Below are positions 5,512 through 20,365 of a stretch of DNA of 20,883 nt, in pieces. Positions within the stretch are counted from its first letter, which is position 1, and each line of letters starts with the position of its first letter. Both the position numbers and the translations under genes were made by a program. The DNA is from a virus: the IMG/VR virus record IMGVR_UViG_3300032050_006029, positions 1 to 20,883 of that record, one strand, 5' to 3'. The notes under the pieces were generated by a model. That model was not told where the DNA came from. It did no database searches and saw nothing but the letters and a program-made list of their open reading frames with translations.

Positions 5512-7392
5512 ATGGGACAACTGATGGGTAGAAAACCAGGGATTCAAAACATCCCAAAGGGCGAAGCCCAGGAGAAAGTTCTCCTACAATTGGAGCAAGG
5601 CTCCACCATTATTGCTGCTATGGCATCTGTCGGGCGAAATGACGTAACCTTCCGACAGTGGTCAATGGCTAACCCTGACTTCAAGGAGAGAGCCGACAAA
5701 GCCCGCCTCAAGGGCAAGGGAATGATTGCCGACCTAGGCGACCTAAAGAACATCTCCTACCCCGACTTCTGTGAGCAGTTCCTCGACACCAAGATGTTTG
5801 AGCACCATCTCGACTGGTATGACCTAATCGAAGGTCGTGAGCCGCGTTGGATTCATCCATCTATGACTTACGAGTTAGGTGCGGCGAACCGTGTTCTAAT
5901 CAATGTGCCTCCAGAGCACGCCAAGTCTACGGTCATCACCACCAACTATGTGGTTTATAAAATTGTTACCAACCCTAACGCTAGAGTAATTATCGTATCT
6001 AAGACTCAAGGTATGGCTAGAAAATTCCTTGGTGCGATTAAGACTCGACTTAGCCACCCCGCCTATATCAAACTCCAAACTGCGTTTGGTCCTAATGGCG
6101 GTTACAAGCAAGATGCAACTCAATGGTCTGCAGATATGATTTATCTAGGAACGGGACGCGACTCAGGCGAAAAAGACCCTACGGTCCAAGCCCTAGGATT
6201 TGGTTCTCAAATCTACGGTGCTCGCGCTGACTTGATTATCCTAGATGACGTTGTGATGAACTCAAATGCCCACGAGTGGGAGAAGCAAATTGAATGGCTT
6301 CAAAAGGAAGTTATCACGCGATTGGGTCGGCACGGAAAACTACTAGTAGTAGGAACCCGTGTCGCACCTATTGACCTTTATAAAATGATTAGAGATGGTT
6401 CCCAATGGACTGGGGGCAAATCTCCATTTACTTACTTTGCACAACCAGCAGTTTTAGAATTTGATGAGAAGCCAGTTAACTGGAAAACTCTTTGGGCTAA
6501 GACTGACCGACCAGAGGGCGACATAGATGAAGTTGACGAGCAAGGGCTATATCCCAAGTGGGACGGACCCGCGCTCTTTACTCGAAGGTCTGAGGTTGCT
6601 CCGTCAGTCTGGGCTATGGTCTACCAACAAGAAGATGTTCAATCCGATTCCATCTTCAGTCCAACCTGCGTTGCGGGTAGCGTCAATGGAATGCGAAAGC
6701 GTGGACCACTCAAAGCAGGAACACCAGGACATCCAAAGAACTCAGACCAACTCTACACAGTTATCGGACTTGACCCTGCTATGGCGGGGGCAACGGGAGC
6801 AGTAGTAGTAAGTTACAACAAGTCTGATGGCAAGATATATGTTTTAGATTGCATCAATATGACAGACCCCTCTCCAGCCAAGATTCAAAGTCTTATTGAA
6901 GACTGGGTTGAACGCTACAAGCCACAAGAAATACGAATTGAAATCAATGCTCACCAGAAGGCTTACGCCCTGGATGATGAACTAAGAAATTATCTAGCCT
7001 CTCACGGTTGCCAATTGAACTCACACTTCACTGGTAAGAACAAATGGGATGTTGGTTTTGGTGTGGCATCTATGGCTGCGCTGTTTGGGAATACCAGAGA
7101 TGGTCGCTTCCAAGATAACAACTTAATTGAACTACCTAGCAACGAAGGCTCTGAAGGTCTTAAGACGCTAGTGCAAGAATTGATTACTTGGAAACCTGAT
7201 ACTAAGAACCCTACAGACTGTGTTATGGCTTTATGGTTTGCGGTTATTCGTTGCCGAGAACTTATGCAACAGAGAACAAAAATTAATGGATACGCTTCAA
7301 ACCGTTGGGCAACAAGAGCACAAATGAACCAACGTATGACAGTAAACCTAGATGACGCTTACGCCGAACAATGGGCGCAACAATACAGTTAA
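5512..7392 (+). CDS. terL: terminase large subunit with N-terminal TerS-like HTH domain
   Basis: This 626-residue enzyme cuts and pumps phage DNA into the procapsid through the portal. The ATPase has Walker A at about 131-140 (NVPPEHAKST, K138), Walker B ending LIILDDV (D245, D246), and a coupling-type LLVVGTR strand. The RNase H-like nuclease shows acidic residues D421 (IGLDPAMAG), E477 (EINAHQKA) and D569 (NPTDCVMA), the usual three-residue metal site. Residues about 18-70 (VLLQLEQGSTIIAAMASVG, then VTFRQW..NPDF) look like the helix-turn-helix of small terminase subunits, and no separate small subunit gene lies nearby. A second in-frame ATG occurs four codons later. A small basic gene and the portal follow. 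Confidence 0.95.
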   Translation: MGQLMGRKPGIQNIPKGEAQEKVLLQLEQGSTIIAAMASVGRNDVTFRQWSMANPDFKERADKARLKGKGMIADLGDLKNISYPDFCEQFLDTKMFEHHLDWYDLIEGREPRWIHPSMTYELGAANRVLINVPPEHAKSTVITTNYVVYKIVTNPNARVIIVSKTQGMARKFLGAIKTRLSHPAYIKLQTAFGPNGGYKQDATQWSADMIYLGTGRDSGEKDPTVQALGFGSQIYGARADLIILDDVVMNSNAHEWEKQIEWLQKEVITRLGRHGKLLVVGTRVAPIDLYKMIRDGSQWTGGKSPFTYFAQPAVLEFDEKPVNWKTLWAKTDRPEGDIDEVDEQGLYPKWDGPALFTRRSEVAPSVWAMVYQQEDVQSDSIFSPTCVAGSVNGMRKRGPLKAGTPGHPKNSDQLYTVIGLDPAMAGATGAVVVSYNKSDGKIYVLDCINMTDPSPAKIQSLIEDWVERYKPQEIRIEINAHQKAYALDDELRNYLASHGCQLNSHFTGKNKWDVGFGVASMAALFGNTRDGRFQDNNLIELPSNEGSEGLKTLVQELITWKPDTKNPTDCVMALWFAVIRCRELMQQRTKINGYASNRWATRAQMNQRMTVNLDDAYAEQWAQQYS

Positions 7393-7639: not shown

Positions 7640-9436
7640 ATGGCATTAGATATGCAACAGGTAGTAATGAGAGTTCAATCTCTCAGAGGGCGCAATGCCG
7701 AGCGCGACCAACGCAACCAAGATGTCCTAGCCGTTCGTCAAGGTAAAATATCAGAAGTCTACCCAAACTTTTTTCCAGATGGTGTTGATACAAACGTAGT
7801 AGCAAACTTCATTGATATTGTCGCACGCGACTTGTCAGAAGTAATGGCTCCGCTTCCAGCAATCAACTGCTCGGCTGCTAACTCAGTTAATGACCGCGCC
7901 CGCAACTTTGCTGACAAGCGCACTCGTATCGCATCTAACTACTTCCAGCACTCAGACCTATCGGTCAATATGTATCAAGGTGCTGACTGGTATGTAACAT
8001 ATGGTTTTATCCCATTCGTAATTGAATTGGATGAAGATAGCAAACTGCCACGCATACGCATAGAAAATCCTATAGGGGCTTACCCTGAGTTTGACCGCTA
8101 TGGTCGCTGTGTAGCATTTGTTAAGTCTTACAAAATGTCCGTAGCAGAACTTATTGCTCAATTTCCAGAATACGAAACTCAACTACTTGACGGGAATAAA
8201 TATTCCTCAAGCATTAATTCTGAACTTGAAGTAGTCCGCTACTACGACAAAGACCAATCAATCATCTACGTGCCAACAAGGGACAATCTGTTGTTATCAC
8301 GTGCCAAGAATCCTCTTGGTAAAATGATGGTTGTAGTTGCCCGTAAGCCATCTATTGATGATGAACTACGTGGACAATTTGATGATGTTCTTGGCATTCA
8401 ACTTCTTCGCAATCGCTTCGCGTTACTTGCAATGGAAGCAGCAGAGAAGTCTGTCCAAGCACCTATCGTCCTTCCTCAAGATGTTCAGGAATTTGAACTA
8501 GGTGGAGATGCGGTTATCCGCACAAACAACCCAGCGGGTGTTCGCCGTGTAGAACTATCAATTTCTCCAGCAGCACTTAATGAATCAACACTACTTAATC
8601 AAGAACTACGTGTTGGTGCTCGTTATCCTGAATCTCGCACAGGTAACGTCAATGCCTCTATCGTCACAGGACAAGGCGTTCAGGCTCTTATGGGTGCATT
8701 TGATACCCAAGTAAAATCTGCTCAAGCAATCTTTGCATCAGCACTACGCGATGTAATTAACATTTGCTTTGAGGTAGATGAAAAACTATTCCCAGCAGAA
8801 AAAACTATTCGCGGCGTTGACTCTGGTTCTCCTTACGAGGTAACTTATCTACCTGCTAAAGACATCAAGGGTGATTACTCAGCAGATGTCCGTTATGGAA
8901 TGCTCGCTGGTCTAAATCCAGCCCAGGGTCTTATCTTTATGCTTCAAGCACTTGGTGGCGGTTTAATCTCCAAGGATATGGCAATGCGTGAACTTCCATT
9001 TACAGTTAACGTAACCCAAGAACTTGAGAAGATTGAAACAGAAAAGATGCGTGACTCGCTTCTTAACTCTGTAAGTGCATTGACTCAAGCCATTCCTACG
9101 ATGGCTGCACAAGGTCAAGATGTTTCCGACATCGTTCTAAAGATTGCTGAAGTAATCAAGGCTCGCCAAAAGGGACAAGCGTTGGAAGACGCTATAGGAG
9201 CAGCCTTTGCACCGAAGCAACAAGTTCCTCCTGCTGGAACTGCTGCACCTATGGTAGAGCAACCGTCCCCTGCTCCCAGCACTGGTCCAGTAGGAGGCGC
9301 TCCTTCTCCAGAGGGCGCAGGTCCTGCACCACAAGAGATGGCTCCACAAGGTCGTCCAGATATTCAAAGCATTTTATCAAGTCTAACTAGCGCAGGTGGC
9401 GCTAATGCAAGCGTAAGAACTATTAATCGTCAATAA
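7640..9436 (+). CDS. portal protein
   Basis: The 598-residue product is the right size and position for the dodecameric portal that forms the DNA entry/exit channel and nucleates procapsid assembly. Features consistent with portals: an N-terminal helical part with VVANFIDIVARDLSEVMAPL, a beta-rich wing around FIPFVIELDEDSKLPRIRI and IENPIGAYPEFDRYG, and a long helical stem region with ALMGAFDTQVKSAQ. The tail from about 520 is Pro/Gly/Ala-rich (PPAGTAAP, PSPAPSTGPVGGAPSP) and probably flexible. AGGA lies before the ATG. The call rests on position, size and fold pattern; sequence motifs in portals are weak. Confidence 0.85.
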   Translation: MALDMQQVVMRVQSLRGRNAERDQRNQDVLAVRQGKISEVYPNFFPDGVDTNVVANFIDIVARDLSEVMAPLPAINCSAANSVNDRARNFADKRTRIASNYFQHSDLSVNMYQGADWYVTYGFIPFVIELDEDSKLPRIRIENPIGAYPEFDRYGRCVAFVKSYKMSVAELIAQFPEYETQLLDGNKYSSSINSELEVVRYYDKDQSIIYVPTRDNLLLSRAKNPLGKMMVVVARKPSIDDELRGQFDDVLGIQLLRNRFALLAMEAAEKSVQAPIVLPQDVQEFELGGDAVIRTNNPAGVRRVELSISPAALNESTLLNQELRVGARYPESRTGNVNASIVTGQGVQALMGAFDTQVKSAQAIFASALRDVINICFEVDEKLFPAEKTIRGVDSGSPYEVTYLPAKDIKGDYSADVRYGMLAGLNPAQGLIFMLQALGGGLISKDMAMRELPFTVNVTQELEKIETEKMRDSLLNSVSALTQAIPTMAAQGQDVSDIVLKIAEVIKARQKGQALEDAIGAAFAPKQQVPPAGTAAPMVEQPSPAPSTGPVGGAPSPEGAGPAPQEMAPQGRPDIQSILSSLTSAGGANASVRTINRQ

Positions 9437-9450
9437 GAAAGTAGGGGACA

Positions 9451-9996
9451 ATGACTACAATTATTGGCGTGCAATACGAAGACAGTTGTGTATTAGTAGC
9501 AGATAGCCTAGTAAGTGATGACAGTGGGCGACAATGGTCCCACCCAAATATGACAAAACTTAATAAGCGCGGAGCATTTATAATTGGTGGTAGTGGCGAA
9601 GTTGCACCTTGCGATATAGCCCAGCATTTATGGAATCCGCCAACATTAACTCCAAAAGATAAAAAAGATATTTACCATTTTATGATTACGAAGGCTATGC
9701 CTTCTCTTCGTTCTTGTCTTAAAGATAATGGTTATAACTTTGATGAAGCACAAGATAAAGACTCAGGTCCAAGATTTCAATTTTTAATTGCTGTCAATGG
9801 TCAACTATTTGATGTTGATGAAGATTTGTCAGTAATGCGAAGTGGGGATGGATTTTACGGAGTAGGTTCTGGAGCACCAATTGCGCTAGGCGCATTGTAT
9901 GCGGGAGCCGAACCACTTCAAGCAGTAGAGATTGCAACTAAATTAAGTATTTATTCAGCGGGTCCATTCCAGATGGAAACGCAATATTCTAAATAG
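9451..9996 (+). CDS. proteasome-beta/HslV-like Ntn-hydrolase
   Basis: The 181-residue protein starts MTTIIGVQYEDSCVLVADS, as in proteasome beta and HslV subunits, where removal of Met exposes Thr1 as nucleophile. Counting from that Thr, Asp17 falls exactly in VLVAD, and a Lys near position 35 (NMTKL) is the best candidate for Lys33. IIGGSGEVA and YGVGSGAPIALGALYAG are the glycine motifs of the fold, and AVEIATKLS is the late helix. Nothing else in the head module looks like a maturation protease, so it may process scaffold or capsid proteins; degradation of host proteins is the alternative. GGGGACA lies before the ATG. Confidence 0.85.
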   Translation: MTTIIGVQYEDSCVLVADSLVSDDSGRQWSHPNMTKLNKRGAFIIGGSGEVAPCDIAQHLWNPPTLTPKDKKDIYHFMITKAMPSLRSCLKDNGYNFDEAQDKDSGPRFQFLIAVNGQLFDVDEDLSVMRSGDGFYGVGSGAPIALGALYAGAEPLQAVEIATKLSIYSAGPFQMETQYSK

Positions 9997-10004
9997 GAGT
10001 TCAA

Positions 10005-10487
10005 ATGGGTGGTAAAGGTAGCGGCGGTTTCCGCGAGAAAGCATCACAGAATAATCCTATGAATATTTCTGCCACTGGTGGCGATGGACAAAGTGGAAGA
10101 AACTACACAGGTTTTGGATATTCAAAAAACAAAGAGATTAATGACCAAAAAGGGGGAGCATATATGCAAGGACAAGTAACGCCTCCTTCAATGCCAGACA
10201 TTCAAGCAGCACCACAGGGACAACCAACTGGAACTCCATCAAGACTTATGGGTATGCCATCATTGGATGAACTTGAACCATCAGGTCTACCTATAACAGA
10301 TGGTGTTGATTTTGGTCCAGGACGTGGTTCAGAGGCTTTGCCTAATAATATTAATCCAGATTTTCGTCCAATGGAAAATGCTGATTTAATTGCAAAATAT
10401 TTACCTGACTTAATCAATGCTGCTCGTGTAGATGGCGCACCTGATTCATATAAAAGACTTGTGAATAAACTAAAAGGGATGCTTTAA
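10005..10487 (+). CDS. Gly/Pro-rich virion-associated protein
   Basis: The 160-residue product starts MGGKGSGGFREKASQNNPMN, a Gly-Lys-rich start seen in several phage proteins. The low-complexity middle is rich in Gly, Gln and Pro (VTPPSMPDIQAAPQGQ). The C-terminal helical segment has ADLIAKYLPDLINAA and YKRLVNKLKGML. Its Met/Pro-rich linker resembles the portal tail in composition. AGGAG precedes the ATG, and the stop overlaps the next start as TAATG. The location between portal and a giant protein suggests a minor head component. The function is unknown. Confidence 0.75.
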   Translation: MGGKGSGGFREKASQNNPMNISATGGDGQSGRNYTGFGYSKNKEINDQKGGAYMQGQVTPPSMPDIQAAPQGQPTGTPSRLMGMPSLDELEPSGLPITDGVDFGPGRGSEALPNNINPDFRPMENADLIAKYLPDLINAARVDGAPDSYKRLVNKLKGML

Positions 10488-10693
10488 TGCAATGGCAAGA
10501 GAATACATTCTTTGACCATTTAGATAAATTTGGAAACTCTCTAGGTGCGGAAAACTTTGGCATTGCTTTTTGCCTGTCAACTGTCAAATGGGAATCCGCC
10601 CAAGATAGAGATACTTTCATTAAGTCATTAACTGGAATTGACCCACAGGGTGGTTCTGAATCTAATTTTAATCCAGGAAGCGTGGTGAAGTAG
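10487..10693 (+). CDS. hypothetical 68-residue protein
   Basis: The product starts MQWQENTFFDHLDKFGNSLG and has a mixed fold, with FGIAFCLSTVKWESAQDRDT in the middle and a polar tail ending GSVVK. Its ATG overlaps the upstream stop as TAATG, and its stop overlaps the GTG start of the giant gene as TAGTG, so it is translated within the head operon. No domain is recognised. Confidence 0.72.
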   Translation: MQWQENTFFDHLDKFGNSLGAENFGIAFCLSTVKWESAQDRDTFIKSLTGIDPQGGSESNFNPGSVVK

Positions 10694-13600
10694 TGTCATT
10701 TTGGAACGACTTCACAGACGAACTTAGTGGTGTAGCCAAAGGAATTGGAAAATTTGTTGGCAAAACATTTTCAGGTATTGGCGAAGGTTTAACCGCTACT
10801 GGAATTGATATTGTAAATCCAAATGCTGCCAAAACTCAGGGACTAGTTAAATTTGCAACAGGCAAAGCAATTGAACCAATTATTGCTACTAGCGGAGCAC
10901 AACTAACATCCGAGGCTAAAGCAGCAATGACAGATGTTGCAACGAGTCTTACTACAAAAAGAGTAAAACAATATGACCCGCTTCTTATGCTTGGACAAGC
11001 AGCCGAAGAAAAAGTATTTAGTCCTTATGTAAAGCGTCCAATTGCTGCTGCAGCATTAGTCACTGACCCATCTAGCCCGTTATATGATGCTGGCACTTAT
11101 GGTGAAGGTTTTCAATTTTCAGATTTACAGGCTGCTTACGAAAGAACAAAAGATGTTTCTCTTGGTGTAGCACTTACTAAGTCATATCTTAATCCTTGGC
11201 ATCTTACTGGAATATCAGACGCTATACTTGAAAATGGTGGAGTTGATATTGACAGGGTAAATCTTTGGGATAATAAAGACGTTCAAAAGAATTTTACTGA
11301 AAATGTAACTGGCAGATATATGTCTGGAATTACAGATGCTCTTATTGGTAATGCTGCAATATTTGCTGCAACTGCTGGAGCCGTAAAAGGTGCTGTAGCC
11401 GTAGGAGGCAAAGCAGGATTATCTACTACATTAAAAAGTATTACAGATTTTGAAGCAAGAATAGACGAGCATTTGGCTGGAAAACAAACAGTTATCGGAA
11501 ACGATATAACTCGCCTTGCTGCATCTAAAGATATAAATGAGATAGTAACTATACTAAAGCCACATTCAAACAACCCACGTCTTCCTGGTCTTATTCGTGA
11601 TACTGAAAGTCCAGAGTTGGTTCGTGATTTTATTCTTGCTGACAAGGGATATGCTCCAGCAATTGCACGTCTTGTTGACGCTAAATTATCTGATGACCTA
11701 TGGGTTATGAGTGGAGCAAAAGCAGAACTTCAAGCAGATTTTATTGCAACTGGAAAACTTCGCACACATACATACGAGCAACGTCAAAGAATTGCTGCAG
11801 CATTTGATGATGCTATTGCTAAGAATCCAAAGCACCAAGAAATATATGATGCCTTTTTACAGGATAGAACAGTCCTTGAGGTAACTCCTTCACTTGCTGC
11901 TCGTGGTGTTAAAGTCGGAGATATTGATTCAGTTCCTCGTGCTGCTGGTAAACTTTATCAACCACTTGAGCCAATTCTTGGTAGTGGAACATACGCAAAA
12001 GTTCGTGGTCGTGTATCAGAACTTAAAACAGCCAGCGCAACTCGTGACTTTTCAAATGTCGGTGGTTGGACTCAACAACTAATCGGAAGAAGCGATGTTG
12101 CTACTTCATTGATTAGATTTGCTACAACCAAAATGCCTCGTGGCGTAGTAACAAATTCTGGTCTTCGCCCAATGGATGCTGTTGAAGAAATCAACGCTCA
12201 TCTTGATGACCTTAAATTATTTACTAATGGTTCAAATATGATTAAGATTTCTCAAACTGAGGCTATTCCAGTTTCTGAATACAGAACTAAAATTATCAGT
12301 GACTACCTTTCTGCTGGTTCTGACGGCGCTCGTGGTCTTGTAATAGACAGCCTAAATGAAAAACTAATCCGAGATATTGCTAGAACCTATGGTGTAAAAC
12401 AAACAGATGTTGATGGACTAATTGAAGAGTCTATGGGTATGCTTCGCGGTTTTCACAACGGTTTAGCAAATGATGCTTATGCTATGGATGCAGCAGGTGT
12501 TAGATACGTAACTGACGAGTTAACTCAACGTCAATTAAGAAATGCAACACCATTAATTAATGTTGGCACAATTGAACGCGACATCTTGCGAGCACAAAAT
12601 GCTTGGAAGCGTGGACAGCGCAATGTTGCTAGAGCGACAGATTTTGTTTATGAGGCTGGAAACAGAGCGTTCTCATTTACACAACTAGTTCGCCCAGCAT
12701 ATATTAGCAAGAACTCAATTATTGAGCCAGCATTGGTATCAATATTATCTCAGGGTTCAAAGGCTATTACATCTGAGTTTTCAAGTGGCATAAAAAATGC
12801 TATTCAAAATAACAAGACTCGCGTTTTGCGTAGTATTGATGCAAGCCAAAATCTTACATCTTCAGCAAAACGAGCACTTGCAAAAGACTTTGATTTGCTT
12901 TCAAAAGAATATGCAAATGCCACAGAACTTCTTGATGAGCACATAGCAGAATATTTCAAATTCTTTGATGACCCAATGGGTCGTTCTCCACAGACAAAGA
13001 TTGAATATGCTGATATTGTAAAGCGCGACTTAGCCGCTGCTGAAAAGTATCTACGCAGCATTGAAGAGAAACTAAACGCTGCTGCACCTGAATTTACTAG
13101 ACAAATACTAAAGCAACCTAGTCTTTACAACCTAACTCGTAGAGTTAAATATCTTGAAGATGTTATTAATCAATCTTCTAAGTCTACTGCTAAAAAAGAA
13201 TTATTCCCTGGACTTGCAGAATATAAAGATGGTGGCTCTGGTGGATTGCCAGGAAGCAGAAATACTGTTGGGCTTGTAAAAGTATCTGCACTTAAAGATA
13301 TGCCTGGAAATAAACTTAGCAACATTGAAGGAATAGAAGCACTTAAAAAATCTTTGCGTGAAGGAAAAGGATTTGCTACTAGAGAATTTCAAGGCAAGCC
13401 TTTTCAAGACCCTATAATGGTTGTTTATGATAATGAAACTGGTTTAGCATATGTAGGAGAAGGAAACCATAGATTGCAAGCAGCAATCGAAATGGGAATT
13501 CCTTATGTTCCAGTAAGAGTTGTTCGTGGTTATAAATCTGAAATGGTTGCTGAAGGCGGAAGAAAACCTAAGCAAATTAAAAATAATAAAGAACCACAAT

Positions 13601-16386
13601 TTGTGGAAACAGTTGGAAGCAGTGCTGGTAAGCCAGTAGGCGCAGGATATGTTCCCCCAGAAATGCACCCAAGTTTTGTGTTTGATAAAAAATTTATTGT
13701 TGAAAAAGATGAATTTGCTGCACCTAATCCTGAAGCATTGGCTATGGCATCTGAAGTTGCAAATGCTAAATCTATAATCAACAAGGCTGCTGGAGATATT
13801 GAAACTCTTGCTCCAGACCTTAAAGTTATTGAAGCAAAAATTGCCAAGGCTTACGCAAGTATGGAATCTAATATCCAAGATTTTGGTAAACTTCACGCTG
13901 ACAAGGCTGATTTGTTTATGATTTCCGATGGACGGACCATAAACTATGGAACTCAAAAACCGTTTACTGCAGTTATGGCTAATGGTGAAAAGATTGAAGG
14001 TATCCCACAGTTTGGTGACAAGAATTTCCTAGGCGATGGATACCAGAGCGAAGTTGCTAACACTCATACCCGTCAGATTGAACTAACTGGAGATAAACTC
14101 TTTGCACAAAAGGTTAATATATTTAACCGCAAGGGTCCACAGACAGTAACTGACATATCAAGTCCTCACTACTTTGATGAACTTGCATTTGTTGTTAACA
14201 ACTATATGCGTGGAGATGTTCTTGTAGACAAGATTCTTGCTGGAGCAACTCGTGATGAACTACTTGCCTGGGGCAAGACTCGTCAGGCTCGTTCATATGC
14301 TTATGAATTTGGTAAGACTGAAAGCGACATCGTTGATATTATAAATAACCAAATTGGTTATGTTAATAGATACCTTCCATCAGCAGAGGCACAACGCATT
14401 GCTGGTTTAGGTGCAGTTGATTCTAAGTCTTTGGCTAAAATTCTTGCAGACGAACCACAAGCACTTACTCCTATTCAACCACTTGAGGTTGCTTACTCAG
14501 TAAAAAGCGCTGGTGCTACACGCTTTGTAGATTTAGTTGACCAACTTAGTGCTAAGGCTTGGACTACTCTGGCAAAGCCAGAAAATATGTTCCGTTATGC
14601 CTGGGCAAGCACTGAGTATAAGACAATTATGACAGATAAACTTAAGTCTTTGTATGCTATGGGTTATGATGTTGATGCAACTGTAATCAATGGTATTAGA
14701 ACATCTGCAGCAACTGAGGTTGTTCAGAATCTAGAGAAGACTTTTTACTCAATCCGCCGCGCTAATCGCGCATTGTTTGCGGCTAGAACTGTGGCAGCAT
14801 TCCCTACTGCAGCAGCAAGCGGTATTTATCGTTATTCAAGACTAGCAGTTAAGAATCCTGCACGCTTTGGTGGATTTGTAAATAGTTACTATGGACTTTA
14901 CAACTCATTTGGTGTTGATAAGTATGGTAATCCAGTTGAAAACGTATTGGATGCAGAATATCTAGTTGTTCCTGGAACTAAAGAAATGAAAAGTCGTTTT
15001 GGTGGACAAGGACTTAAATTCCCAATTAGAGCCACTACATTTGCTGTTAACTTTGCAGGTCCTTCTTGGATTGTTCCTATACCAATGGGCGTTCTATATA
15101 GTGCCAAAAAAGGTTCTGATAAAGAAGTAAAGAAACTTATTGATAATACAATAGGTAAGATTCCAGGATATTCATATGATGAATTATTCCCATATGGAGT
15201 TGAAACAAGTGTTGGGGCTAACGTCCAGCGTGCAGTAACCCCAGGTTGGTTGCCAGCATTACGTAAGTATCTATCTCCAAATGGTGATGGAACAGTTGAT
15301 TGGATGAACTCAGTTTCATCTGAATTCAAATACCAACAGATTCTTTATGATGCAGGTCTTGGTCCAGAGCCAACAACCGATAGCGTAATAAAGCAAGTAA
15401 AGAAGAATTACTTTACTAAGTTTAAGTGGCAATTTGGTTCTATAATTGGAACACCTGCTTATGTTGAAACTAAGCCAGGTAATGTATTTTCAGACTTATT
15501 CAACTCAAAGGCTAATGCCTATGTTGCAGAAGGTAAATCACGCACAGAGGCTGCAGACCTAGCAGAACAAGATGTCAACCAAATGCTACGTCTTCCAAAA
15601 GGAACCATTAGCCAAGATGTATTAAATGTTAAGTCTTTATCTAAATCTATCTATGCTCCTAGCAGCCAAGAAACAGTTAGCCGTATCTGGGTAGACCATA
15701 AAGACTTGGCTAAGAAGTTAGAACTGTTAGAGCCAGGTGGTTCTTTAGTTGGTCTTATGACCGCAGACATTCCTTATGGAACTGATTCTCAGGCTGGTAA
15801 ATTCTTAAGCGACCCTAATACGACACTTCCTGGTGGAACTATATTAAACAAGCCAGTTAAATCTGTTGAAAAAATGCAACGAGATTTAGAAGTATCACAA
15901 TATTGGAAAGCGTATACCGACCTAAAGAATAAATATAATGAGGCAGCGGTTAAGGCTGGCTATGCCAGTTATCGAAGCGTGCCTGAACTTGTCGAGTCCC
16001 TAAAGGATTATGGTAATACATTAGGAAAAGCAAGTAAACAATGGAATGTGGCATACAAGAAAAGTCTTTCTGGAGATAACGCCGTTGTTAATGCTATCGG
16101 AATGCAAACAATTCTAAACGATAAATCCTATATGGATAAGTTTGGTAGCACTCAATTCTGGCAACACGCTAGGGCTTTTATTAAATACCGTGATGATTAT
16201 GCAAAACTATATGCAGATGTTCCATCTGGTTCTAAAGGAGTAGTTCAAAAGGCTTGGATTGATTACTTAGAAAAAACTAGAGAAGATTGGGACCCAGCAT
16301 TGGGAAACATCATTGATAGATATTTCTTGAATGATAACCTAAAGGAAGCAAATGTTGACACAAAGAAGTCTAAGGAGAATAAGTAA
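10693..16386 (+). CDS. giant (1897-residue) virion-type protein with embedded ParB-like domain
   Basis: The frame is open over 5.7 kb and begins with a GTG coupled to the upstream stop. The N-terminus MSFWNDFTDELSGVAKGIGK is amphipathic. A glycine/alanine-rich hydrophobic stretch lies at about 209-240 (IGNAAIFAATAGAVKGAVAV), with others near 1355-1375 and 1445-1475. Residues about 850-955 form a ParB/sulfiredoxin-like domain: KVSALKDM..., a central DPIMVVYDNETGLAYVGEGN, GEGNHR at 922-927, then AAIEMGIPYVPVRVV. The rest is long helices. Size, membrane-active-looking parts and its place between portal and scaffold fit an internal protein ejected with DNA, or a polyvalent protein. This role is inferred. 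Confidence 0.85.
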   Translation: MSFWNDFTDELSGVAKGIGKFVGKTFSGIGEGLTATGIDIVNPNAAKTQGLVKFATGKAIEPIIATSGAQLTSEAKAAMTDVATSLTTKRVKQYDPLLMLGQAAEEKVFSPYVKRPIAAAALVTDPSSPLYDAGTYGEGFQFSDLQAAYERTKDVSLGVALTKSYLNPWHLTGISDAILENGGVDIDRVNLWDNKDVQKNFTENVTGRYMSGITDALIGNAAIFAATAGAVKGAVAVGGKAGLSTTLKSITDFEARIDEHLAGKQTVIGNDITRLAASKDINEIVTILKPHSNNPRLPGLIRDTESPELVRDFILADKGYAPAIARLVDAKLSDDLWVMSGAKAELQADFIATGKLRTHTYEQRQRIAAAFDDAIAKNPKHQEIYDAFLQDRTVLEVTPSLAARGVKVGDIDSVPRAAGKLYQPLEPILGSGTYAKVRGRVSELKTASATRDFSNVGGWTQQLIGRSDVATSLIRFATTKMPRGVVTNSGLRPMDAVEEINAHLDDLKLFTNGSNMIKISQTEAIPVSEYRTKIISDYLSAGSDGARGLVIDSLNEKLIRDIARTYGVKQTDVDGLIEESMGMLRGFHNGLANDAYAMDAAGVRYVTDELTQRQLRNATPLINVGTIERDILRAQNAWKRGQRNVARATDFVYEAGNRAFSFTQLVRPAYISKNSIIEPALVSILSQGSKAITSEFSSGIKNAIQNNKTRVLRSIDASQNLTSSAKRALAKDFDLLSKEYANATELLDEHIAEYFKFFDDPMGRSPQTKIEYADIVKRDLAAAEKYLRSIEEKLNAAAPEFTRQILKQPSLYNLTRRVKYLEDVINQSSKSTAKKELFPGLAEYKDGGSGGLPGSRNTVGLVKVSALKDMPGNKLSNIEGIEALKKSLREGKGFATREFQGKPFQDPIMVVYDNETGLAYVGEGNHRLQAAIEMGIPYVPVRVVRGYKSEMVAEGGRKPKQIKNNKEPQFVETVGSSAGKPVGAGYVPPEMHPSFVFDKKFIVEKDEFAAPNPEALAMASEVANAKSIINKAAGDIETLAPDLKVIEAKIAKAYASMESNIQDFGKLHADKADLFMISDGRTINYGTQKPFTAVMANGEKIEGIPQFGDKNFLGDGYQSEVANTHTRQIELTGDKLFAQKVNIFNRKGPQTVTDISSPHYFDELAFVVNNYMRGDVLVDKILAGATRDELLAWGKTRQARSYAYEFGKTESDIVDIINNQIGYVNRYLPSAEAQRIAGLGAVDSKSLAKILADEPQALTPIQPLEVAYSVKSAGATRFVDLVDQLSAKAWTTLAKPENMFRYAWASTEYKTIMTDKLKSLYAMGYDVDATVINGIRTSAATEVVQNLEKTFYSIRRANRALFAARTVAAFPTAAASGIYRYSRLAVKNPARFGGFVNSYYGLYNSFGVDKYGNPVENVLDAEYLVVPGTKEMKSRFGGQGLKFPIRATTFAVNFAGPSWIVPIPMGVLYSAKKGSDKEVKKLIDNTIGKIPGYSYDELFPYGVETSVGANVQRAVTPGWLPALRKYLSPNGDGTVDWMNSVSSEFKYQQILYDAGLGPEPTTDSVIKQVKKNYFTKFKWQFGSIIGTPAYVETKPGNVFSDLFNSKANAYVAEGKSRTEAADLAEQDVNQMLRLPKGTISQDVLNVKSLSKSIYAPSSQETVSRIWVDHKDLAKKLELLEPGGSLVGLMTADIPYGTDSQAGKFLSDPNTTLPGGTILNKPVKSVEKMQRDLEVSQYWKAYTDLKNKYNEAAVKAGYASYRSVPELVESLKDYGNTLGKASKQWNVAYKKSLSGDNAVVNAIGMQTILNDKSYMDKFGSTQFWQHARAFIKYRDDYAKLYADVPSGSKGVVQKAWIDYLEKTREDWDPALGNIIDRYFLNDNLKEANVDTKKSKENK

Positions 16387-18780: not shown

Positions 18781-18906
18781 ATAAATAGAATCCTGTGTGA
18801 CCAACCAGCCCACACAGCGTAGAAGACTGGTAGCAAGAGCCAGACCGATTCCCCGATTGGGACCTGTGGCTTGCGATTCAAACGAATAGAAGGGTGGACA
18901 GTTGCT
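18781..18906 (+). promoter_or_regulatory. structured leader upstream of the scaffold gene
   Basis: This 126-base gap is the longest in the rightward operon. It holds CTGTGTG/CACACAG (18793-18817, 11-base loop), GCAAG(AG)CCA/TGGCTTGC (18833-18874) enclosing TCCC/GGGA, and ATTC-AAAC-GAAT (18876-18887). No strong U-run follows, so it looks more like an RNA processing, stabilising or regulatory leader for the scaffold-capsid genes than a terminator. Confidence 0.55.
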
Positions 18907-19386
18907 ATGAGCAACAACTACTGGGATGATGACGAAGACGACCTAGATACCGACAATGATGTGCAATTGGACGGCAGTGACTTACTTAAAAAGTTACGTA
19001 AAGCCAAGCGTGCAGATGAAAAGCGTATCAAAGAACTCACTGAGCAACTTGAGGGATTTTCCAAGTCGCAGCGTGAGCGAACAGTCAAAGATGTCCTAGA
19101 AAAACGCGGTGTTAATCCAAAGGCTATACGACTGATTCTAAAAGATATAGATGATGTTAGCGAAGAGTCAGTTAATAACTGGCTTGAAGATAACGGAGAT
19201 TTATTCGGACTCAATGTTAGCCCCGAAGCACCTGCAGAAAATGATATTGACCGTGCCGCATTAAGGCAACAAGATATTGTGACACAAGGTGCATTATCAC
19301 CAAACCGAGCAGATGATTATTTGATGAAATTAAACAACGCCGAAAGCGCTGAAGAAATCATTGCAATGATTAATGCTCAAAACTAA
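18907..19386 (+). CDS. scaffold-like capsid assembly protein
   Basis: The 159-residue product starts MSNNYWDDDEDDLDTDNDVQ, strongly acidic, followed by a basic coiled coil (LLKKLRKAKRADEKRIKELT) and a helical C-terminus ending EEIIAMINAQN. An acidic/coiled-coil protein directly before the major capsid gene is the usual position and design of phage scaffolds, which fill the procapsid and leave or are cleaved at maturation. The frame extends upstream to 18871, but MSNNYW at 18907 starts a typical protein and has GGGTGG upstream. Segment GVNPKAIRLILKDIDDVSEE resembles actinophage scaffold middle regions from memory. Confidence 0.83.
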   Translation: MSNNYWDDDEDDLDTDNDVQLDGSDLLKKLRKAKRADEKRIKELTEQLEGFSKSQRERTVKDVLEKRGVNPKAIRLILKDIDDVSEESVNNWLEDNGDLFGLNVSPEAPAENDIDRAALRQQDIVTQGALSPNRADDYLMKLNNAESAEEIIAMINAQN

Positions 19387-19417: not shown

Positions 19418-20365
19418 ATGGCATATGTATCAACAGCCTCAGATAATCTCGGAGGAACCGCTGGTGGTGCTGGTCTAGTTCAAAAGGCGTATGACCGTCT
19501 TTTGGAATTTGCTCTCCGTTCAGAACCCCTAATTCGTTCTGTCGCAGATAAGCGCCCAGCAAAGCAAGCAATCCCAGGTTCAACAGTCGTTCTACAACGC
19601 TATGTTGACCTATCAACAGCAACAACAGCATTAACAGAAACAACTGACCCAGATGCAGTAGCAATGTCTACACCAACATCTGTAACCATTACTCTTAACG
19701 AGTATGGTAACTCAGTTCTTGTTACTCGTGCGTTGGAACTCTTCAGCCTTGCTGATGTAGACCCAGCAATCGCTAACATTATTGCATTCAACCTAGCAGA
19801 TTCTATTGACTCAGTTGCAATGACTACTCTTCGCGGTGGTTCAAACGTAATCTACTCAGGTTCAACTGCAACATCAACAGCAACAATTACTGCTGCTGCA
19901 ACAATCTCTTCTGCAAACATCCGCCGCGCAGTGGCTAAGTTACGCGCTAACAAGGCAGTTGCTCGCAAGGGTTCACTCTACTGGGCTGGTATCCACCCAG
20001 AAGTTTCACACGACCTTCGTGCTGAAACAGGTTCTGCTGGATGGTTGCTTCCAAACCAATACGGTTCTGCACAAGACCGCATCTGGGCTGGAGAAATCGG
20101 ACAATATGAAGGTGCATACTTCGTAGAATCTGCACGTCTTTACAACGCAACAGATGGTTCTTCATCAGCACGCAACTACCGCACAATTATCTGTGGACAA
20201 CAAGCACTTGCAGAAGCAGTTGCTGAAGAGCCACACGTAGTTATCGGACCAGTCGTTGACCGCTTGATGCGTCACCGTCCAATGGGTTGGTATGGAGTTC
20301 TAGGCTTTGCTCGCTACCGCGAAGAAGCACTATTCCGTATCGAATCAGGTTCATCAATCGCATAG
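19418..20365 (+). CDS. major capsid protein, N4-gp56-like (HK97 fold)
   Basis: The 315-residue product builds the icosahedral head shell. The N-terminal arm MAYVSTASDNLGGTAGGAG is followed by VQKAYDRLLEFALRSEPLIR and PGSTVVLQRYVDLSTATTAL, then TETTDPDAVAMSTPTSVTIT and NEYGNSVLVTRALEL. This order is characteristic of the N4-gp56 family of capsid proteins. The C-terminal part has a P-domain helix (IRRAVAKLRANKAVARKG), IHPEVSHDLRAETG and a final GWYGVLGFARYREEALFRIE. Length is normal for the family, and there is no obvious N-terminal delta domain. It is preceded by scaffold and a very strong ribosome binding site, as expected for the most abundant virion protein. Confidence 0.92.
   Translation: MAYVSTASDNLGGTAGGAGLVQKAYDRLLEFALRSEPLIRSVADKRPAKQAIPGSTVVLQRYVDLSTATTALTETTDPDAVAMSTPTSVTITLNEYGNSVLVTRALELFSLADVDPAIANIIAFNLADSIDSVAMTTLRGGSNVIYSGSTATSTATITAAATISSANIRRAVAKLRANKAVARKGSLYWAGIHPEVSHDLRAETGSAGWLLPNQYGSAQDRIWAGEIGQYEGAYFVESARLYNATDGSSSARNYRTIICGQQALAEAVAEEPHVVIGPVVDRLMRHRPMGWYGVLGFARYREEALFRIESGSSIA

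Follow-up and report, generated by a model that had tools for sequence, protein, structure and literature searches.

Does a proteasome-like threonine peptidase that is encoded directly after a phage portal gene mature the phage head, or does it act on other proteins of the infected cell? The question is raised by a 20,883-nt stretch of viral DNA (IMG/VR record IMGVR_UViG_3300032050_006029; hereafter the window), in which the initial annotation assigned such a peptidase to the position of a head maturation protease and named interference with the host as an alternative.

The peptidase and its active site

The peptidase ORF was confirmed on the plus strand, with an ATG start and 181 codons for amino acids (Table 1). 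Its N-terminus reads M-TTIIG and there is no propeptide; removal of the initiator Met would expose Thr1, the second residue of the translation. The Thr1/Asp17/Lys arrangement of active Ntn peptidases that the initial annotation had described is present. Numbered from Thr1, the Asp is residue 17 and the Lys residue 35 (not 33), and in the profile alignment this Lys faces the K of the betaproteobacterial proteasome homologue BPH (QKV / EKI).

Table 1. The peptidase gene, its active-site codons and its neighbours in the window
Feature	Position	Strand	Remarks
Terminase large subunit (TerL)	5512..7392	+	phrog_38 4e-69
SPP1-like portal protein, immediately 5' of the peptidase	7640..9436	+	phrog_104 7e-31; PF05133 sub-threshold
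Proteasome-like (phrog_1040) threonine peptidase CDS, 181 aa, no propeptide	9451..9996	+	
Catalytic Thr1 codon (residue 2)	9454..9456	+	invariant 62/62; model residue 2 aligns with BPH chain residue 1
Asp17-equivalent codon (residue 18)	9502..9504	+	invariant 62/62
Lys33-equivalent codon (residue 36)	9556..9558	+	invariant 62/62; aligned with BPH K
Oxyanion-hole Gly47-equivalent codon (residue 49)	9595..9597	+	invariant 62/62
Acidic loop, residues 93-108, helix H2 to next strand, at the pore-loop position	9727..9774	+	BPH-like length
g160, 3' neighbour of the peptidase, bounds the variable slot after the portal	10005..10487	+	phrog_8200
Giant variable head-module protein, 1897 aa, ParB-like patch	10693..16386	+	phrog_10618, phrog_1033
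Probable separate scaffold gene, small, acidic, directly 5' of the capsid gene	18871..19386	+	role inferred from position and composition
Major capsid protein, N4-gp56 family	19418..20365	+	TIGR04387 126.7 bits

The conservation of these residues was examined in 145 relatives, which were reduced at 92% identity to 62 non-redundant ones. M1, T2, T3, D18, K36, G49, and G141 were invariant in all 62. The initial annotation had looked to homologues for a loss of Thr1; the residue was kept in 62/62, a count that was partly selected for, since MTTI was one of the two patterns in one peptidase scan. None of the patterns used in the two scans contained Asp18 or Gly49, and a single one, HPNMTKLN in the other scan, contained Lys36. 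The start codons of the 145 relatives, the window included, were ATG in 122, GTG in 14, TTG in 8, and an apparent ATT in 1, and Thr stood directly 3' of the start codon in every one, the start having been set at the motif by the script. The dN/dS of the peptidase was 0.06-0.09 in all four pairs analyzed, and the gene is therefore under purifying selection.

The profile comparison with phrog_1040 ('peptidase HslV family') gave an E value of 9.9e-27, and the nearest solved relatives in a profile search were two BPH proteins (2.3e-11 for 5ovu, and 1.1e-10); phmmer also matched BPH 5ovs at 3e-5. Pfam Proteasome scored below threshold (15.1 bits vs a cut-off of 22.4), and the NCBIfam HslV models gave 13.2 and 14.1 bits against equivalog cut-offs of 157.75 and 137. 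The AlphaFold model of the peptidase had a mean pLDDT of 92.7 and a pTM of 0.88. Its best PDB matches were BPH 5ovt and 5ovs (Z 18.3, 2.7-3.0 A, 164-165 residues), and HslV and proteasome beta subunits were matched with Z about 17. By this model the window peptidase has the proteasome fold, with helices at residues 51-59, 68-72, and 74-92 and with early strands that are not separated by a helical insertion. At the pore position the window protein has a loop of 16 residues, and this loop is net negative in 61 of the 62 relatives.

The window protein is a group I proteasome homologue as described by Fuchs, Alva, Lupas 2021 (PMC8665760), who name PPH, AAH, and CPH as phage members of this group. 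It probably belongs to AAH, to judge from the distribution of its relatives. Relatives on plasmids were found in 24 records, mostly rhizobial and with Streptomyces included (30-33% identical among the matches listed), and the distribution stated for AAH therefore fits. One cellular relative, on a large plasmid of Sinorhizobium fredii GR64 (L239, 8001-8546), is flanked by nifQ on one side and by iron-sulphur assembly/nifS genes on the other; a multiubiquitin/ThiF/Mov34 cluster lies at a distance of about 6-7 kb. Relatives were also seen in phages of actinobacterial hosts, namely DSL-LC01 (L083) and Microbacterium phages, for which AAH is a candidate assignment.

The head module and the slot after the portal

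The gene order TerL-portal-peptidase-variable genes-scaffold-capsid is common to many metagenome contigs and OX376640. In the window, the peptidase ORF lies 14 nt from the portal stop and 8 nt from g160, so the portal neighbourhood given in the initial annotation was correct. The probable scaffold had no family match in an NCBIfam search; its gene was present in 10 of the 10 head modules compared (window included). The giant 1897-aa protein carries its ParB-like patch at residues ~860-955. Unlike the portal and the capsid, it differs strongly from one relative to the next, with identities of 20-47% in partial alignments.

The major capsid protein (315 aa) matched the HK97 model TIGR01554 below threshold (E 0.0029), with residue 13 at model position 109. 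The window capsid presumably begins near the start of the mature HK97 chain; judged from this match and the HK97 cleavage site, the N4-gp56-family capsid has no visible delta domain. The capsid profile had no match among solved structures, and the AlphaFold capsid model (pLDDT 31.7) was set aside. The capsid is longer in some relatives, with ORFs of 401-409 aa in G042, G044, and G049 and of 401 aa in L082. In the former three the alignment to the window capsid is interrupted at about residue 250, where an accessory domain may have been inserted.

Other proteases and partner proteins were searched for. As the initial annotation had said, no serine-type prohead protease is visible: no protease was found among the other 9 of the 10 window proteins scanned, and neither S78 proteases (0/14) nor ClpP-type proteases (0/16) were found in related records; in the S77 search the control itself was silent. 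AAA_2 proteins (ClpX/HslU-type) were found in 0 of 14 related phage records, with the control positive in 14/14, in a search that covered phage-encoded AAA_2 alone; a host HslU could be the partner. The PADLOC defence search returned nothing for four of four proteins. Profile searches of genome contigs with the peptidase and with the portal found no relatives, and no host was assigned by them. No paper on a threonine-type prohead protease was among those listed in the literature searches.

We analyzed the slot after the portal in 80 portal-homologous loci (the best 80 of >550), of which 78 had enough downstream sequence and 2 were too short. The peptidase lay directly after the portal in 69 of the 78 informative loci of this sample (L153 counted as present) and was absent from that position in 9, which represent about 5 sequence groups. 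It was found nowhere in the sequence of these 9 records (0/9), while the comparison records were positive in 5/5. Two of the peptidase-free records (37.5 and 39.9 kb) represent closely related genomes that are circularly permuted relative to each other. Both seem to be near complete, as judged from length and permutation alone; most records are fragments. The respective identities of these two genomes to the window were 77 and 76% for the portal, 76 and 76% for the scaffold, and 75 and 75% for the capsid. They also encode similarly large proteins at the position of the giant protein (1680 and 1877 aa). A different protease, unrecognised or supplied by the host, may serve in such phages.

The peptidase was also exchanged beside a conserved capsid. 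The capsid of G046 is 94% identical to that of the window, whereas the peptidase in the same slot is only 33% identical. Among nine head modules, the identity correlations were -0.04 for peptidase-capsid, 0.04 for peptidase-scaffold, and -0.33 for peptidase-portal, and that for scaffold-capsid was 0.64. Among 47 loci with terminase, portal, and peptidase, they were 0.29 for terminase-portal, 0.20 for terminase-peptidase, and 0.09 for portal-peptidase. All three of the latter are weak; module shuffling is therefore general, and the comparison carries most weight in the set of nine full modules.

The contents of the slot between the portal and g160 vary (for example in L190 and L033): it holds the peptidase, the peptidase with a 75-aa gene, or a different gene of 73-89 aa alone. 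A simple loss of the peptidase beside a shared 75-aa neighbour was considered for the peptidase-free phages and dropped; in BLAST, the small post-portal proteins of the peptidase-free loci (6 of the 9 compared) had no match to the post-peptidase proteins of 11 others.

Positions of the gene outside the head module

The location in the head module holds for the window's group only. Among the 62 non-redundant relatives, 33 genes were directly after the portal, 26 were elsewhere, and 3 had too little upstream DNA. On the maximum-likelihood tree the portal slot needs four changes, at least two of them forced by well-supported branches. One of the two peptidase scans and the portal-locus scan each kept the best 80 of >550 relatives, and the frequencies describe those samples.

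Three non-portal slots recurred: after the endolysin gene, after the RuvC resolvase gene in the replication cluster, and between RecT and exonuclease genes. They hold peptidases about 60-70% identical to that of the window; in L015 a peptidase of 71% identity occupies the RecT-exonuclease slot. The neighbours in this last slot are on the opposite strand, from which we infer that the peptidase gene is transcribed alone there. A homologous portal is present in two records of this type (26 and 25% identical); the gene after it is a different one, and the peptidase is encoded ~13-14 kb from the portal, on the opposite strand. Of the 20 non-portal peptidase records searched, several of them short fragments, 18 yielded no homologous portal. 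In VpV262, phAPEC8, Pumpernickel, and MTATph1, the relative lies outside the head gene cluster within the stretch viewed. The peptidase gene is portable between non-homologous genome positions.

Three annotated phages, LeeroyJenkins (a Microbacterium phage), DSL-LC01 (an Actinomycetia phage), and D'Alembert (a Psychrobacter phage), encode a peptidase relative and also a second enzyme that is annotated as a head or capsid maturation protease. The relative is located away from the portal-capsid cluster in all three.

Function and comparison with known systems

The reading that we prefer, with a probability of roughly 0.7, is that the window peptidase belongs to the self-compartmentalising threonine peptidases of BPH/AAH type, and that tailed phages from lake and other metagenomes carry it as a portable accessory whose targets are proteins of the host or the phage within the infected cell rather than the capsid. 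By analogy with BPH, a tetradecameric double ring, the subunits would assemble into a closed double ring whose active sites face inward and whose pore loop is acidic. The enzyme would work unaided by a dedicated AAA+ unfoldase, on host or phage proteins that are unstructured or selected, and its role would be host take-over or counter-defence rather than capsid cutting. A bolder form of this proposal is tentative: an ATP-independent 'mini-proteasome' cassette might move between unrelated phages and settle repeatedly in the same few slots (post-portal, post-endolysin, post-RuvC, and RecT-exonuclease), serving as a degradation machine for counter-defence or host take-over with its own substrate choice. 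In the window, the peptidase is probably expressed together with the head operon, because it occupies the variable slot between portal and g160. The post-portal slot is kept in most informative loci of the sample and by peptidases as different as 33% identity, and a link to late or head expression may therefore be selected in the window's phage group.

A head maturation role, in which the peptidase would cut scaffold, capsid, or portal while the head assembles (the initial annotation had named scaffold or capsid), seems to us very improbable. The preference for the site next to the portal and the failure to find S78 and ClpP-type proteases in the related records speak for it. However, near-complete peptidase-free phages share the portal, scaffold, and capsid; close relatives of the peptidase are encoded among replication and lysis genes in other phages; the peptidase does not co-vary with capsid or scaffold and was swapped beside a nearly identical capsid; the N4-gp56-family capsid begins without a visible delta domain; and a separate maturation protease coexists in three annotated phages. 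Of the self-compartmentalised threonine protease suggested as an unusual maturation route, the enzyme class stands and the head maturation job is not supported, and the host-cell interference offered as the alternative fits better.

Two further readings were weighed. It is unlikely that the peptidase acts late on a virion protein other than the capsid, such as the giant 1897-aa protein or further ejected proteins of the module: the window's group does retain it in the late head module, and the giant proteins 3' of it vary strongly as well, but equally large proteins occupy this place in peptidase-free phages and the same peptidase is found outside the head module elsewhere. We consider it quite improbable that the protein is a connectase-like ligase, or a highly specific single-target enzyme on the same fold, rather than a general peptidase. 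PMC8665760 describes connectase as a ligase built on a proteasome-like fold, and it reports group I homologues to be without a co-occurring AAA+ partner or known substrates, which would suit such an enzyme; in the window model, however, both first helices are present and the early-strand helical insertion is missing, unlike connectase as described there. The recurrent slots, natural absences, and swaps argue against head maturation and towards an accessory function in the infected cell, and the peptidase-free relatives provide a ready natural control for experiments.

Head maturation proteases of phages (S78, S14, and similar) likewise often adjoin the portal gene, but their fold is unrelated to that of the window peptidase. 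HslV (ClpQ) of HslVU has the same fold and catalytic set as the window protein, which differs in scoring 13-14 bits against model cut-offs of 137-158, in its longer loop, and in having no AAA_2 (HslU/ClpX) match in the 14 records related to the window. PPH, the proteasome homologue of phages and their hosts, is likewise proteasome-like and phage-borne; according to PMC8665760 it has ~140 residues and no helix H2, whereas the window protein has 181 aa and H2, and a PPH identity was ruled out on these grounds.

BPH (5ovs/5ovt/5ovu) is the best structural and sequence match among solved structures. The elongated acidic pore loop described for BPH in PMC5777263 is similar in length to that of the window protein. 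BPH has no unfoldase partner, and none of the AAA_2 type was found in the 14 records related to the window. The window protein differs in being phage-borne and ~25% identical. BPH variants with altered pore loops were still inactive in the assays reported in PMC5777263, and the label 'peptidase' therefore rests on the conserved site.

AAH, as presented in PMC8665760, agrees with the window protein in belonging to group I, in being phage-borne without a propeptide, and in the distribution of relatives. The same text found no functional hint in the gene context of phage proteasome homologues and no AAH in any actinobacterial phage, whereas recurrent gene slots and relatives in Microbacterium phages were found here. 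Phage proteasome homologues as such were catalogued in 2021 (PMC8665760); what is new is the pattern of slots, absences, and swaps.
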